This document shows positions 1-5,536 of a stretch of 6,929 nt of DNA, piece after piece (position 1 is the first letter of the stretch; each line of letters starts with the position of its first letter). The stretch comes from a bacterium. GTDB lineage: Bacteria > Vulcanimicrobiota > Vulcanimicrobiia > Vulcanimicrobiales > SCRA01. The notes beneath the pieces are model-generated. The model searched no databases. It was given only the letters and a program-made list of their open reading frames with translations, and was not told the DNA's origin. Where the stretch lies: the NCBI GenBank assembly GCA_004298675.1, contig SCRI01000039.1:1-6929 (forward strand), written 5' to 3'. The position numbers and the translations under genes were made by a program.

Positions 1-117
1 ATCGCCGCCAGCGGCTTGCTCTACCCTGCCTGGGCGATGGTGGCCATGGCTGCCAGCGTTACGACCGTGTTGTTCAACTCCTTCGCCGGGCGACTCGTCA
101 AGGGGACGGCGTCATGA
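1..117 (+). CDS. C-terminal end of a heavy-metal translocating P-type ATPase (partial)
   Basis: An open frame runs in from the left edge and ends at TGA 115-117, leaving 38 codons. The peptide is a hydrophobic helix (GLLYPAWAMVAMAASVTTVL) followed by FNSFAGRL and a short basic tail. This matches the last membrane segment of P1B-type ATPases, where a conserved Met-x-x-Ser and a following Asn-(Ala/Ser)-Leu stretch close the protein. Here the Met is residue 16 of the fragment, the Ser residue 19 and the Asn residue 26. Family members use ATP to export Cu(I), Ag(I), Zn or Cd across the inner membrane. In Cu(I) pumps the motif is usually Met-x-x-Ser-Ser; here the second Ser position is Val. The stop overlaps the start of the next gene by 4 bases, which implies translational coupling. 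The catalytic domains lie outside the window, so ion specificity cannot be read. Confidence 0.72.
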   Translation: MAASGLLYPAWAMVAMAASVTTVLFNSFAGRLVKGTAS

Positions 118-1505
118 AGAGCAATGTCTCCCCGTTTACCATCGTCGCAATCACGTCGATTGCAACGTTCCTCTCGAACCTCAGCGCCGGCATCGTGAAC
201 GTGCCCTTGCCGAAGATCGTGCAATCGTTCCATGGCGGCAACTTCGATCTCGTCTATGTGGTCATTTCGTACCTCGTACCGTACGCGGTCGTCATGCCGG
301 TCGCCGGGAAACTAGGAGATGCGTACGGGCAACGGCGCGTCTTCCTCTGGGGACTGGGCCTTTACGCGGTCACATCAGCGTTCACGGGATACGCGCCGAA
401 TATCGCCGGCCTCGTCGCGTTGCATACGCTGCAGGGCCTCGGCGGCGGCATCATCTTGGTCTCGATCGTCTTCATCAGCGCGCAGATCCGCGAACGAACG
501 GGCCTGGCCCTCGGAACCTGGCGAGCGGCGCTGCTCTCCGGCACGGTGGGCGGCCCGGTAGTGGGCGGTTACCTCAGCGCATACTGGGGCTGGCCTTCGA
601 TCTTCTGGGTAACTGCCCCAATCGCGGCGCTGGTATGGATTTGGGGCGCCTTCGCCTTAGAAGAGCTTCCGCGTAGCGGCGAGGGTCGCTTCGATTGGGT
701 GGGATCGCTTTCGTTCATCGTGGCGTTCTCGGCGCTGGTCGTCGCGCTTGCCGCTTCGGGCTCAGCGATGGATACGATGGCCTCCGGCCTCTCCAAGGCG
801 ATCGGCGCGACGATGGGCGCGATGGCGCTCATGCTCTACGGACTGTTCATCGTCGGTCTCGCGGTTCTTTGGTTCAATCAGCGAACCGAGAAGCAACCGC
901 TCTTCGACATGAGCCTGTACCGCATTCGTCCGTTCGTCCTGGGAAACGCCGGCACGTTCCTGGTCTGCGTCGGCATGTTCTCAGCGATGATGTTCGTTCC
1001 GCTCGAGCTTCAGTACGTGGGCGGCTACAGCGCTTTGCAAGCTTCTAATGTACTGTTACCGTTGGCAATCACGGCGATCGTCGTCGGTGTCTGGGGCGGT
1101 TGGCTCACGGATCACTTCGGCGCGGTGACCCCGTGGGTCACCGGCTTCACGATCATGGTCGCGGCTTTCATCTTGCTCGCACTCCTGGGGCCGTCGATCT
1201 CGCCGCTCGCGCTGGCCACGATTATGGTCATCGAAGGCGTCGGTATGGCGCTGCCCTTGGCGCCCACGGCGGTGTCCGCGCTCACCCACGTGCCGGAGGA
1301 ATCGGCGGGCGAAGCCGGCGGCCTCTTCAACTTCTCCCATAACATGGGGCGCGCCGTCTCACTTGGCGTCTTCGGCGCCATGCTGCGATTTGGCAGCGCC
1401 GGCAGCTACACCCTGATCTTTCTTATTGCTGCGGCTGCGATGGTCATCGGTGCGTTGCTGGTTCTAGGACTGGCGCCCCGTCCGCATGTTGCCGCTCAGG
1501 CGTAG
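114..1505 (+). CDS. DHA2-like MFS transporter (probable 14-TM drug/metal exporter)
   Basis: This 463-residue polytopic membrane protein has the marks of the major facilitator superfamily. Motif A is GKLGDAYGQRR (65-75, in the loop after helix 2), a motif-B-like LQGLGGGI lies at 106-113, and the antiporter motif C is GTVGGPVVGG (143-152) in helix 5. WGWPSIFWV (158-166) and RFDWVGS (about 192-198) are typical of the DHA2, 14-helix branch, and length fits it. DHA2 proteins are proton antiporters exporting drugs or other small molecules; the substrate here is unknown. The acidic residue common in the first-helix signature (around 24-36, SAGIVNVPLPKI) is absent. The ATG overlaps the stop of the P-type ATPase as ATGA, with AGGGGA at 101-106 as ribosome-binding site 7 bases upstream. 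Cotranscription with a metal pump suggests a role in the same stress response, but this is inference. Confidence 0.92.
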   Translation: MKSNVSPFTIVAITSIATFLSNLSAGIVNVPLPKIVQSFHGGNFDLVYVVISYLVPYAVVMPVAGKLGDAYGQRRVFLWGLGLYAVTSAFTGYAPNIAGLVALHTLQGLGGGIILVSIVFISAQIRERTGLALGTWRAALLSGTVGGPVVGGYLSAYWGWPSIFWVTAPIAALVWIWGAFALEELPRSGEGRFDWVGSLSFIVAFSALVVALAASGSAMDTMASGLSKAIGATMGAMALMLYGLFIVGLAVLWFNQRTEKQPLFDMSLYRIRPFVLGNAGTFLVCVGMFSAMMFVPLELQYVGGYSALQASNVLLPLAITAIVVGVWGGWLTDHFGAVTPWVTGFTIMVAAFILLALLGPSISPLALATIMVIEGVGMALPLAPTAVSALTHVPEESAGEAGGLFNFSHNMGRAVSLGVFGAMLRFGSAGSYTLIFLIAAAAMVIGALLVLGLAPRPHVAAQA

Positions 1506-1509
1506 GAGG
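1504..1509 (+). promoter_or_regulatory. Shine-Dalgarno AGGAGG that fixes a GTG start
   Basis: A perfect AGGAGG overlaps the TAG stop of the MFS gene and sits 6 bases before GTG 1516. An in-frame ATG at 1486 has no comparable site and would add ten Arg-rich residues lying inside the MFS gene. The GTG is therefore preferred as the start of the next gene. Confidence 0.8.
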
Positions 1510-2464: not shown

Positions 2465-3517
2465 ATGAAGCCGTTCCGCATCCACGCGTTCTTCCTAGGC
2501 GCCGTACTGTTCGGCGCAAGCCTCGCCGCCGCAAGCGCGGCCCCGCTGCAGCCGCTCATACCGATGCACGGTATCGTGCTGGCGCAGACCTCCGCGAACC
2601 AAGCGATCGTGCGGAACGACGCGGTTGCGCAGATGCTCCCCGCGCAGACGCGCGCCTACCGCATACCGCAGGGCGCTCATCTCCATCCCGGCGAGCAGTT
2701 CGACGCGTACCTAAAAACCACGACCTCTCCGTGGACGCTCGAGGACCTGGACCCCGGCACCCGTTATGCCGTTGGACAGGCATTTCCCAGCGTGACCCGC
2801 TTTCTCGAGGTAGGAGACAAGCTGCCTGACGTACCTCTCGTCGATCAGCACGACCAGCCGGTGCAGTTCTCGGACTTTCGCGGTAAGACGACGCTGCTTA
2901 CCGTCATCTACGCGCGCTGCACCGATATCTGCCCGGTGATCACCCGCAAGTTCGTCTCGATTGCGTCCACCCTGTCCCCCAAGAGATTCCACTTCGTCGA
3001 GGTGACGATCGACCCGAACAACGACACGCCGAGCGTCTTGCAGGCGTATGCGCACAAGTACGGGGCGGTTGGCCCCCAGTGGACATTCCTGGCGGGTGAG
3101 CCGCGCGTCGTGGGAAAGCTGCTCGCGCAACTGGGAATATCGAGCGTGCACGGTAGCGATCACGTCACCGTTGCCGGAGATCGGCAGGTGGGCGCCAGTG
3201 ACGCCCTGATCGACCACAGCGAGCCGCTGGTCATCATCGACAAGAACGGGCGCATCGCGTCGATCATCCAGAATGCGGCTGTGTCGCCGAGCATGATCAT
3301 CGCCCAGGCACGGCACGACGACGGCCTGGTGTCGAACGGCTTCAAGCGCTTCGAACTGGCGGCGACGTCGCTGGTCTACTCGGTCTGCGGCGGTTTTCTG
3401 GTGGGCGAAACCACGGTCATGGTGGGCTTCTGGATCTTAGTCATCGGCCTGCCGATCACCACGTTCGCCCTCTGGCAGATCTGGCGGCGCGTCTTCTCCG
3501 ATCGCAGCCACGCCTAG
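2465..3517 (+). CDS. SCO1/SenC-family protein with N-terminal CusF-like domain and C-terminal membrane anchor
   Basis: The 350-residue protein begins with a signal peptide (cleavage after about AAASAA, residues 21-26). Residues about 33-96 align with the CusF-like copper-binding fold (HGIVLAQ... to ...SPWTLEDL). The SCO thioredoxin-like domain spans about 113-284: FSDFRGKTTLL (135-145), CTDICP with copper ligands Cys152 and Cys156, TIDPNNDTP (181-189), WTFLAG (206-211) and DHSEPLVIIDKNGRI (250-264), with His251 as the expected third ligand. A membrane helix (about 317-338) with a basic tail anchors the C-terminus. SCO proteins bind Cu and deliver it to, or reduce thiols of, the CuA site of cytochrome c oxidase; some act in redox or metal defence. 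All three copper ligands of the SCO domain are present, but the CusF-like ligand positions are changed. No oxidase gene lies in the window. ATG 2465 is preceded by GAGGGG at 2457-2462. Confidence 0.93.
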   Translation: MKPFRIHAFFLGAVLFGASLAAASAAPLQPLIPMHGIVLAQTSANQAIVRNDAVAQMLPAQTRAYRIPQGAHLHPGEQFDAYLKTTTSPWTLEDLDPGTRYAVGQAFPSVTRFLEVGDKLPDVPLVDQHDQPVQFSDFRGKTTLLTVIYARCTDICPVITRKFVSIASTLSPKRFHFVEVTIDPNNDTPSVLQAYAHKYGAVGPQWTFLAGEPRVVGKLLAQLGISSVHGSDHVTVAGDRQVGASDALIDHSEPLVIIDKNGRIASIIQNAAVSPSMIIAQARHDDGLVSNGFKRFELAATSLVYSVCGGFLVGETTVMVGFWILVIGLPITTFALWQIWRRVFSDRSHA

Positions 3518-3617: not shown

Positions 3618-3623
3618 AAGGAG
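3618..3623 (+). promoter_or_regulatory. Shine-Dalgarno AAGGAG supporting a TTG start
   Basis: AAGGAG lies 5 bases before TTG 3629 and is the only good ribosome-binding site near the start of the STAS domain. No in-frame ATG or GTG precedes the conserved region, so TTG is the likely start. The 111-base gap before this gene (3518-3628) otherwise shows only a weak -10-like TATCCT (3597-3602) without a convincing -35. Confidence 0.6.
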
Positions 3624-3628
3624 CGCAA

Positions 3629-4717
3629 TTGATTACTCGGGTAGTCCGCTGGGTTCTCACAGACCTGCCGGAGACGATCGATCGGCAGTGTCTCCTCAGG
3701 GTCAAGACCACTTTTGACGGGCATGTGAAAGCCGGTCGCATGCACCACATCATCAACCTCGACCGGGTGGGTGAGTGGCAGAATGAAGCGACCACATCCA
3801 TCATCACAATCTTGCGAACGCTGAGGAACGCGGGTGGCACGCTTCGACTCGTCACGACGCGCTCGGATATACGCGCTGCCCTCTCCCTTGCTGGACTGGA
3901 CAAGATTCTTGGCGTCTACACGGATGAAGTGGCTGCCTCCGCGGTGACCGAGGACAACACGGCAAAGCCTGGACGTGCTCTCCATGCGCGCGAAGCGTCG
4001 ACTCGAACGGACACGCAAGTTCGCGTGGTAAAGAGCGTCCGCTCTCTTCTGACGCTCCTCTTGCTACTTTTGCCGAGTGCCGGCGCACGGGCGGCAAGTA
4101 TAGCACAGACTGACGCGAGTCCGGGAGCGATACGCACTACGGATGCTCAAGAGATCGTGCAGCGCCTCATCGAGCGCGAGCCCGACTTACAGACATATCG
4201 CGCACACGTTAACGTGAAGATCCGTATGAGGAGTTTTCCATTTCTTGCGCCGGCACTCAAGGGCCAGGTCTACTTCGAGCGGCCGGGCAAGTATGAAGTG
4301 ATCTTCGACCACGTGCCTTTCTATGCCAAGGGCTTCGAGCGCGTTTACGGGGACATTGGTGACCCCTCGGATTGGTATCAGCGCTTCCAAGTCTCATATT
4401 CCGGACAGGCCATCGTAAGCGGCCATCCCGACATCGTGCTGACGCTCGTTCAGCGCGTGCGCGGAATGATCGATCATGAACGCGTCATGGTCGATCCCAC
4501 GACCTGGCACATCGACCAAATGGAGTGGCGTTACTACAATGGCGGTGTCATCACGATGTCGCAGCAATATTCCAATGAGGACGGCTTTGACATGGTTATT
4601 CGTCAATCGGCCGACATCCGGATACCACACTTTTCCGCCATCGGGGAGGCCGACCTGAGCGACTATCGGACGAACGTCGCAATCGATGATGCCACGTTCG
4701 CGAAGAACCGCCGATAG
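3629..4717 (+). CDS. STAS domain joined in frame to a secreted LolA-like domain
   Basis: One uninterrupted frame of 362 codons holds two unrelated modules. Residues about 8-106 look like a STAS (anti-sigma antagonist) domain: VLTDLPETID (9-18), HHIINLDRVGEW (39-50), GGTLRLVTTRSDIRAALSLAG (69-89, given here as GG..L.LV...DIR..L..AGL) and VYTDEVAA (96-103). At the usual phospho-Ser position (D-S-S-G-L in SpoIIAA-type proteins) it reads QNEAT, so classical phosphoregulation is unlikely. Residues 133-156 form a typical signal peptide or anchor (VVKSVRS, then LLTLLLLLLPSAGARAA). Residues about 165-362 resemble the LolA/LolB-like lipoprotein-carrier fold, with GQVYFERPGKYEVIF and the closing SDYRTNVAIDDATF. 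GTG 4025 could start the second module separately, but has no clear ribosome-binding site. As a fusion, STAS would be cytoplasmic and the LolA-like part extracytoplasmic. The exact ligand of either module is unknown. Confidence 0.75.
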   Translation: MITRVVRWVLTDLPETIDRQCLLRVKTTFDGHVKAGRMHHIINLDRVGEWQNEATTSIITILRTLRNAGGTLRLVTTRSDIRAALSLAGLDKILGVYTDEVAASAVTEDNTAKPGRALHAREASTRTDTQVRVVKSVRSLLTLLLLLLPSAGARAASIAQTDASPGAIRTTDAQEIVQRLIEREPDLQTYRAHVNVKIRMRSFPFLAPALKGQVYFERPGKYEVIFDHVPFYAKGFERVYGDIGDPSDWYQRFQVSYSGQAIVSGHPDIVLTLVQRVRGMIDHERVMVDPTTWHIDQMEWRYYNGGVITMSQQYSNEDGFDMVIRQSADIRIPHFSAIGEADLSDYRTNVAIDDATFAKNRR

Positions 4718-4898: not shown

Positions 4899-5264
4899 AT
4901 GGCTAAGCTGCGTATTCGTCCAGGTCTCTCGCCGGAGCCCGAGGAGTCGGCGGACCTGCTCTACGCCAAGTTCATGAGCGGGCTGGCCGATCCAACGCGC
5001 CTGCGCATCGTGCGCTTCCTCATCGACGGCCCGCGCTCGGTGGGCGAGATTGTCGAGCATCTGGGCATGAGCCAGAGCCGGGTGAGCAACCACTTGGCCT
5101 GCCTCAAATGGTGCGGCTACGTCGATACTGAGCGCCAAGGGCGCAGCATCATCTACCGGATCACGGACCGCCGCATCCGCAAGATCCTCGAGTTGGCGCA
5201 GGCCGTCGTCGGCGAGAACGCCGCACACATCGCCGCCTGCACCCGAATCGACCTCGAGGCGTAG
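4899..5264 (+). CDS. ArsR/SmtB-family metal-sensing repressor, CmtR-type cysteine ligands
   Basis: This 121-residue winged-helix regulator has MSGLADPTRLRIVRFL (26-41), typical of ArsR helix 1-2, and the recognition helix SQSRVSNHLACL (58-69). The wing is RQGRSIIYRI (79-88). Cys68 and Cys72, in NHLACLKWCGYV, fall exactly where the Cd/Pb sensor CmtR of mycobacteria has its Cys57 and Cys61. Cys114 near the C-terminus (HIAACTRID) corresponds to CmtR Cys102. The ArsR-type As(III) motif CVC in helix 3 and the CadC/SmtB alpha-5 His/Asp set are not seen. Such proteins bind the operator without metal and release it when a soft metal binds the three thiolates. ATG 4899 abuts the operator and probably starts a leaderless message. 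The MerF-like gene begins 2 bases after its TAG, so both should be induced together. Cd, Pb or Hg are possible inducers; context favours Hg. Confidence 0.93.
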   Translation: MAKLRIRPGLSPEPEESADLLYAKFMSGLADPTRLRIVRFLIDGPRSVGEIVEHLGMSQSRVSNHLACLKWCGYVDTERQGRSIIYRITDRRIRKILELAQAVVGENAAHIAACTRIDLEA

Positions 5265-5266
5265 TC

Positions 5267-5536
5267 GTGAGATCAGAGTCGCCGTTCGACTGGCTTGTAG
5301 CGCTCGGCGCGGCAGCGGCGGCCCTTGTCTGCTGCGCGACCCCGTTCGTGCTTGCCGCGACCGGGTTCTCACTCACGGCACTTGTACTGACAGGCGCACG
5401 CCGCTTCTCTGTGGTCGCGGCTGCTGCGGTAGGTGCGCTCGTTGTCGTAGCATTCGTCGTGCGCCGCCGCCGTGCGGCGGCGTGCCGCGCGCGGAGTGCG
5501 AAAGGCCTGCCGGAGGCACGTGTTGGTCACGAGTAA
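5267..5536 (+). CDS. MerF-like mercury (soft-metal) transport protein
   Basis: The 89-residue protein has two membrane helices, about 10-30 and 46-65. The first carries the vicinal pair in VCCATP (Cys22, Cys23, Pro26), followed by a Gly-Phe-Ser-Leu-Thr-Ala-Leu-x-Leu-Thr-Gly stretch (33-43), matching MerF, whose Cys-Cys-x-x-Pro sits at the same place before G-L-S-A-L-T-G. After the second helix MerF has a cytoplasmic second Cys pair; here RRRRAAAC keeps only Cys73. MerF-type proteins move Hg(II) from the periplasm to the cytoplasm for reduction by MerA. Neither merP nor merA is in the window, so the fate of imported metal is unclear. The start is GTG 5267, with GAGG (5256-5259) upstream, 2 bases after the arsR stop. 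The coupled expression implies metal-induced transport. The short length (MerF about 80) and motif fit well. Confidence 0.8.
   Translation: MRSESPFDWLVALGAAAAALVCCATPFVLAATGFSLTALVLTGARRFSVVAAAAVGALVVVAFVVRRRRAAACRARSAKGLPEARVGHE

Follow-up and report, generated by a model that had tools for sequence, protein, structure and literature searches.

A STAS domain and a LolA-like domain joined through a signal-peptide-like segment in one conserved reading frame of Vulcanimicrobiales

How can a STAS domain, which belongs inside the cell, and a LolA-like domain, which is predicted to lie outside the cytoplasmic membrane, be encoded by the same gene, and does such a gene give rise to one protein or two? 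This question is raised by a stretch of 6,929 nt (hereafter the window; contig SCRI01000039.1) from a metagenome-assembled genome (MAG) of the order Vulcanimicrobiales. The initial annotation had described a STAS domain, a signal segment and a LolA-like domain in one frame, and our analysis bore this out: positions 3629-4717 of the forward strand form one continuous open frame of 362 amino acids with a TTG start and without an internal stop, and the same architecture was present in 22 genomes. The STAS domain, linker, signal segment and LolA-like domain are all encoded by this single frame, as follows:

3618..3623, forward strand: Shine-Dalgarno sequence AAGGAG, 5 nt 5' of TTG 3629 (from the sequence; duplex energy -7.1 kcal/mol)
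3629..4717, forward strand: fused STAS / signal segment / LolA-like gene, 362 aa (frame kept in genome G003 with 88% identity; two-domain profile match in 22 genomes)
3701..3931, forward strand: STAS domain, residues 25-101, divergent and without the SpoIIAA phospho-serine motif (Pfam, PDB profile and fold match)
3932..4027, forward strand: linker, residues 102-133, with the weak internal GTG 4025 inside
4028..4096, forward strand: hydrophobic signal segment, residues 134-156, with an AxA-type cleavage motif at A153-R154-A155 or nearby
4139..4714, forward strand: LolA-like domain, predicted periplasmic, residues 171-362 (family profile matches; purifying selection in comparison with G003)

The signal-type segment reported between the two domains was also found, with a hydrophobic core at about residues 140-152 followed by the AxA-type motif. 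An out-of-frame ATG at 3984 opens a small frame just as it had been described (MRAKRRLERTRKFAW followed by a stop, ending at 4031); its stop lies one codon earlier in G003, and the frame is very probably non-coding.

As the window is an entire 6.9-kb MAG contig, an assembly or sequencing error could have joined two genes. However, the same continuous frame was observed in G003 (contig SCQY01000167.1; 88% identity), another, independent MAG of the window's genus, and the fused form is carried by the closed chromosome (3,508,363 bp) of the cultured species Vulcanimicrobium alpinum WC8-2 (G004), a bacterium with a Gram-negative double membrane (PMC9758169). Thus, an assembly artefact could be ruled out, and we regard the probability of this explanation as negligible. 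In V. alpinum, the ORF is located at about 1,374,062-1,375,063, with the predicted cut at about AFA|QPDRPTDP; judged by kinship, the window belongs with this species in one order of Eremiobacterota/Vulcanimicrobiota. A family profile built from ten fused proteins identified 22 genomes, from 10 genera of the window's order, in which a single frame covers both domains: g2 contributed eleven of these genomes, the window's own genus (g1) and g38 two each, and seven other genera one each. The search for the architecture in other genomes, which the initial annotation had proposed, therefore yielded fused homologues, and its concern that homologues might always occur as separate ORFs did not hold. 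When the public genome collection was scanned with the single protein, only the near relative was recovered, and no relatives appeared in the viral contigs or plasmids searched.

With regard to domain identity, Pfam placed STAS (PF01740) over residues 27-101 of the window protein with an E-value of 4.3e-4, slightly below the curated cut-off, and in a genome-wide scan the window match reached 22.9 bits, just above the PF01740 cut-off. The same model matched split relatives strongly (1.4e-11), and the family profile recognized STAS in both the window and G003 (E = 5e-23). A PDB profile search with the family profile matched SpoIIAA-type chains (E about 1e-3), and TM1081 was top-ranked by Foldseek (E = 4.2e-4) with a low-confidence model predicted from two sequences (mean pLDDT 38); the model lends weak support to the STAS assignment and is useless for the LolA-like half. 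For the LolA-like domain of the window protein, Pfam returned nothing. Of 46 family members, however, 10 were matched by PF17131 (LolA_like; best 6.7e-6), and two remote proteins found with that profile family scored above its curated cut-off. A PDB profile search with the LolA-like alignment returned only chance matches to a fluorescent protein.

We then considered how the fused gene is related to other arrangements. About 90 loci of the window's order were classified with profiles of the two halves, which revealed three states: fused genes (21, or 22 with that of G116, found separately), separate STAS and LolA genes (39) and LolA-like genes without a nearby STAS gene (about 29, including a second copy, C16, in the window genome). 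In 33 of the 39 split genomes, the STAS stop and the LolA start overlapped by exactly 4 nt, and a stop/start overlap of this length is the usual sign of translational coupling. Moreover, the STAS and LolA genes of G029, G083 and G100 lie in one frame with a single stop separating them. The proposal that a stop between two coupled genes had been lost matches these comparative data. In the LolA-like tree, for which the root was not inferred, all fused sequences fell on one side of a branch with an SH-aLRT value of 97, accompanied there by only four STAS-less sequences, paralogues left out. One old event, either joining or splitting, would explain most of this distribution. Joining of two coupled genes appears to be favoured over splitting, because distant family members have no STAS domain.

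Whether translation of the fused genes begins at one place or two was approached by searching the region from 25 codons before the hydrophobic core to 3 codons after its beginning. A start codon near the core was present in all 68 split or STAS-less genes, whereas 11 of the 21 fused genes had none (Fisher p about 1e-8). The split LolA genes had strong ribosome-binding sites (median duplex energy, -9.5 kcal/mol), in contrast with the weak sites of the internal start codons left in fused genes (median, -3.1 kcal/mol). Since start codons were lost and the remaining sites were weak, the fused genes appear to be translated from the STAS end. The initial annotation had suggested that a second gene might start at GTG 4025, in which case the locus would functionally be two genes giving two proteins from TTG 3629 and GTG 4025. 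This GTG is indeed in frame and directly 5' of the signal segment; however, its ribosome-binding site is weak (-3.2 kcal/mol, compared with -7.1 for TTG 3629), and 11 of the 21 fused genes have no start codon in the region at all. We therefore rejected this candidate as very improbable: roughly half of the fused genes cannot have an internal start, and in the window one is unlikely.

The segment between the two domains hardly distinguishes fused from split proteins: signal hydrophobicity was 2.22 and 2.31, respectively, and uncharged length was 19.9 residues in both. Of the 21 fused proteins, 20 had an [AV]xA motif behind the core (12.2 expected from shuffled tails), an excess that was counted over related sequences and is therefore no more than suggestive. 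Judged by these features, the hydrophobic segment has kept the appearance of a signal peptide that can be cleaved.

The genomic context of relatives points to an exporter. Among 18 loci of family f2 with long flanks, a TolC-type OEP gene on the same strand as the STAS/LolA genes was found within about 5 kb downstream in every case and an HlyD/EmrA-type adaptor in 17; an MFS gene occurred in 7, and in some loci a TetR regulator and an EmrB-type MFS pump lay between. The STAS/LolA genes of relatives thus head a TetR/EmrA/EmrB/TolC-type operon. Upstream of the STAS or LolA gene, the palindrome TGCAAGTAC(C/T)(C/T)ACTTGCA was present in 78 of 86 family-f2 loci (0.3 expected from shuffles), and it was often doubled at a distance of 39-40 nt, the second copy being directly preceded by a -10-like box (for example, L023, L032 and L050). 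This operator-like palindrome (TGCAAGTACCCACTTGCA), a candidate site of the operon's TetR, is very probably the operator of that regulator; in STAS-less loci, the LolA-like gene usually lies directly behind it.

In the window's own genome, the gene has neither an operator-like palindrome nor an adjoining EmrA/TolC operon, and the TetR-EmrA-EmrB set of this genome (C74) has no STAS or LolA partner adjoining. The window's own genus has lost the pump-operon context: of the pump genes, the fused gene there has just one, of EmrB-like MFS type, nearby. This MFS gene (window positions 1-1506) is 95% identical to its counterpart in G003 (L037, 3934-5439); it is located upstream of the fused gene in the window and downstream, inverted, in G003, and the locus has therefore been rearranged. 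The window neighbourhood is otherwise metal- and redox-related (ArsR, MerT-like and SCO1). At positions 4899-5536, the gene of an ArsR-family regulator precedes that of a small MerT-like membrane protein, and a pyridine-nucleotide-disulphide oxidoreductase gene lies directly before the ArsR copy of C16, which together suggest a worn metal-resistance module. On the reverse strand, a short SCO1/SenC-like frame (1854-2432; PF02630, E = 7.8e-10) looks truncated and points away from an intact SCO1-like gene at 2465-3517. Another LolA-like paralogue of the window's genus (L182, 1730-6855; G002:C24) lies behind genes for an AcrB-type RND pump and a QueG-like protein.

What the STAS domain does is less apparent. 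Ser/Thr occupied the position of the SpoIIAA phospho-serine in 10 of the 21 fused proteins and in 15 of the 39 split ones; the window has Asn there. Because this phospho-acceptor position is not conserved, the STAS "switch" assumed in the initial annotation is unsupported, and a conserved phospho-switch STAS of the SpoIIAA/RsbV type (anti-sigma factor antagonist) was rejected, the D-S/T position being variable. No anti-sigma kinase gene was found among the scanned neighbours, which covered part of the neighbours, and a partner could be encoded elsewhere. The second copy in the same MAG (C16:12418-13155; L038) is 91% identical over LolA and has lost 117 codons in frame, STAS included, with its first 23 residues joined to the hydrophobic core; a leader is plausibly kept. 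The genes 3' of this copy (ArsR, Crp-type and HD) resemble their window counterparts at 91-97%, and the two contigs share their end point; the likeness may reflect strain variation or an island that was duplicated. A comparison of the window with G003 showed purifying selection on the LolA-like part (dN/dS = 0.29; 95% interval, 0.13-0.60), whereas the interval for STAS spans 1 (dN/dS = 0.57; 0.14-2.44).

Taken together, we consider the chances about even that an old fusion of two coupled genes created a single precursor, most likely cut by signal peptidase, whose carrier part acts beside an exporter. According to this model, a small STAS gene and the gene of a secreted LolA-like periplasmic protein, translationally coupled, would have fused long ago, and a precursor would be made from one start, TTG 3629. 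The STAS domain would remain in the cytoplasm while the Sec machinery takes up the internal signal segment, N-side inside, and exports the LolA-like domain. Signal peptidase I would then most likely cut at the kept [AV]xA site, so that a STAS stub stays tethered to the inner face of the membrane and the LolA-like carrier is set free in the periplasm. These would be the same two products as in split genomes, but always made one to one. The substrate of the carrier, which would act beside the exporter, is most likely hydrophobic or lipidated. The topology of the protein, its cleavage and cargo, its partnership with the pump and the role of STAS are all deduced here.

On the other hand, the protein might stay whole as a type II membrane protein, with STAS inside and the LolA-like domain tethered outside, so that a cytoplasmic signal is coupled to an envelope carrier or pump. 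The continuous frame and linker are kept in 10 genera, an uncharged stretch of about 20 residues suffices to span the membrane, and STAS domains regulate transporters elsewhere, as in MlaB and SulP (PMC7367683). However, the cleavage motif is kept in nearly all of the fused proteins, the segment is indistinguishable from that of split relatives (presumably secreted), and many relatives have no physical link between the domains or no STAS at all; we thus find a permanently whole protein doubtful. A lasting type II protein seems no more likely than processing into two proteins, and with moderate confidence we would place cleavage into a tethered stub and a free LolA-like protein ahead of it, because cutting of the protein would more readily explain why the motif is kept across genera. 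Still less probable is a more elaborate version, in which cytoplasmic sensing or switching by an uncleaved transmembrane STAS/LolA-like protein gates a periplasmic carrier that feeds a TetR-controlled EmrAB-TolC-type exporter; such a transmembrane switch is possible and not favoured. If true, envelope transport would have a regulator of a new kind, encoded by one gene in some genomes and by two in others.

A different reading, which is compatible with cleavage and covers the window's genus rather than the whole family, regards STAS in the window lineage as a decaying remnant, an overlong leader of a protein in which only the exported LolA-like domain matters. The in-frame deletion of STAS in the C16 copy with its plausible leader, the weak Pfam score of the window STAS, the STAS-less relatives and a dN/dS that is clearly below 1 for LolA and not for STAS are all in line with it, and this genus may be in the course of losing the STAS part. 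However, the family profile still recognizes STAS in the window and G003, the domain is kept in all fused genomes, and dN between the window and G003 is close for the two parts (STAS, 0.045; LolA, 0.037). This reading appears unlikely. We retain cleavage of a fused precursor as the preferred reading.

The architecture is real, conserved and moderately surprising, and it is a variant arrangement of known parts, namely STAS, LolA_like and an EmrAB-TolC-type operon. STAS together with a LolA-like domain had no description in the literature searched, most subscription papers lying outside it. Across a diderm phylum that has been little studied, the family links a tripartite exporter with a STAS domain and a LolA-like carrier; it includes naturally occurring fused, split and STAS-less forms within one order and provides a clear case of a gene fusion that places a cytoplasmic domain before a signal peptide. 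As a cultured species with a closed genome has the fused form, topology, cleavage and pump partnership are directly testable.

Several known systems invite comparison. A eukaryotic precedent for the proposed processing is iRhom2, which is reported to be cut by the signal peptidase complex behind its cytoplasmic N-terminal domain; the two proteins are unrelated (PMC7618786). The Mla system, with the STAS protein MlaB inside and the carrier MlaC outside, resembles our family in that a STAS domain and a periplasmic carrier-like protein are encoded side by side, but the carrier here matches LolA_like rather than MlaC, and the pump genes are of EmrA, EmrB and TolC types. No MlaF, MlaE or MlaD genes were found among the scanned neighbours (where TetR, HlyD, MFS and OEP were found) and no MlaC profile match was obtained, and an Mla-like system was rejected on these grounds. 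Bacterial STAS proteins (SpoIIAA, TM1442, TM1081 and MlaB) are similar in sequence and predicted topology, whereas in our family the phospho-acceptor Ser/Thr is not conserved and an export signal follows the domain. The likeness to EmrAB-TolC exporters lies in the EmrA-type adaptor and TolC-type channel, often with TetR and an EmrB-type MFS, that come after the STAS/LolA genes in family f2; to our knowledge, known EmrAB-TolC systems have no STAS and LolA-like head genes, and the window's own copy lies outside such an operon. Finally, LolA is a lipoprotein chaperone that carries its cargo from LolCDE to the outer membrane acceptor. Members of PF17131 (LolA_like, outer membrane lipoprotein-sorting protein) share with our family a homologous C-terminal domain, recognized by profile via family members, and a predicted export signal before it; in contrast, no Lol-pathway partner was seen adjoining here, a STAS domain precedes the signal in frame, and the LolA-like gene of relatives is placed with a tripartite pump.
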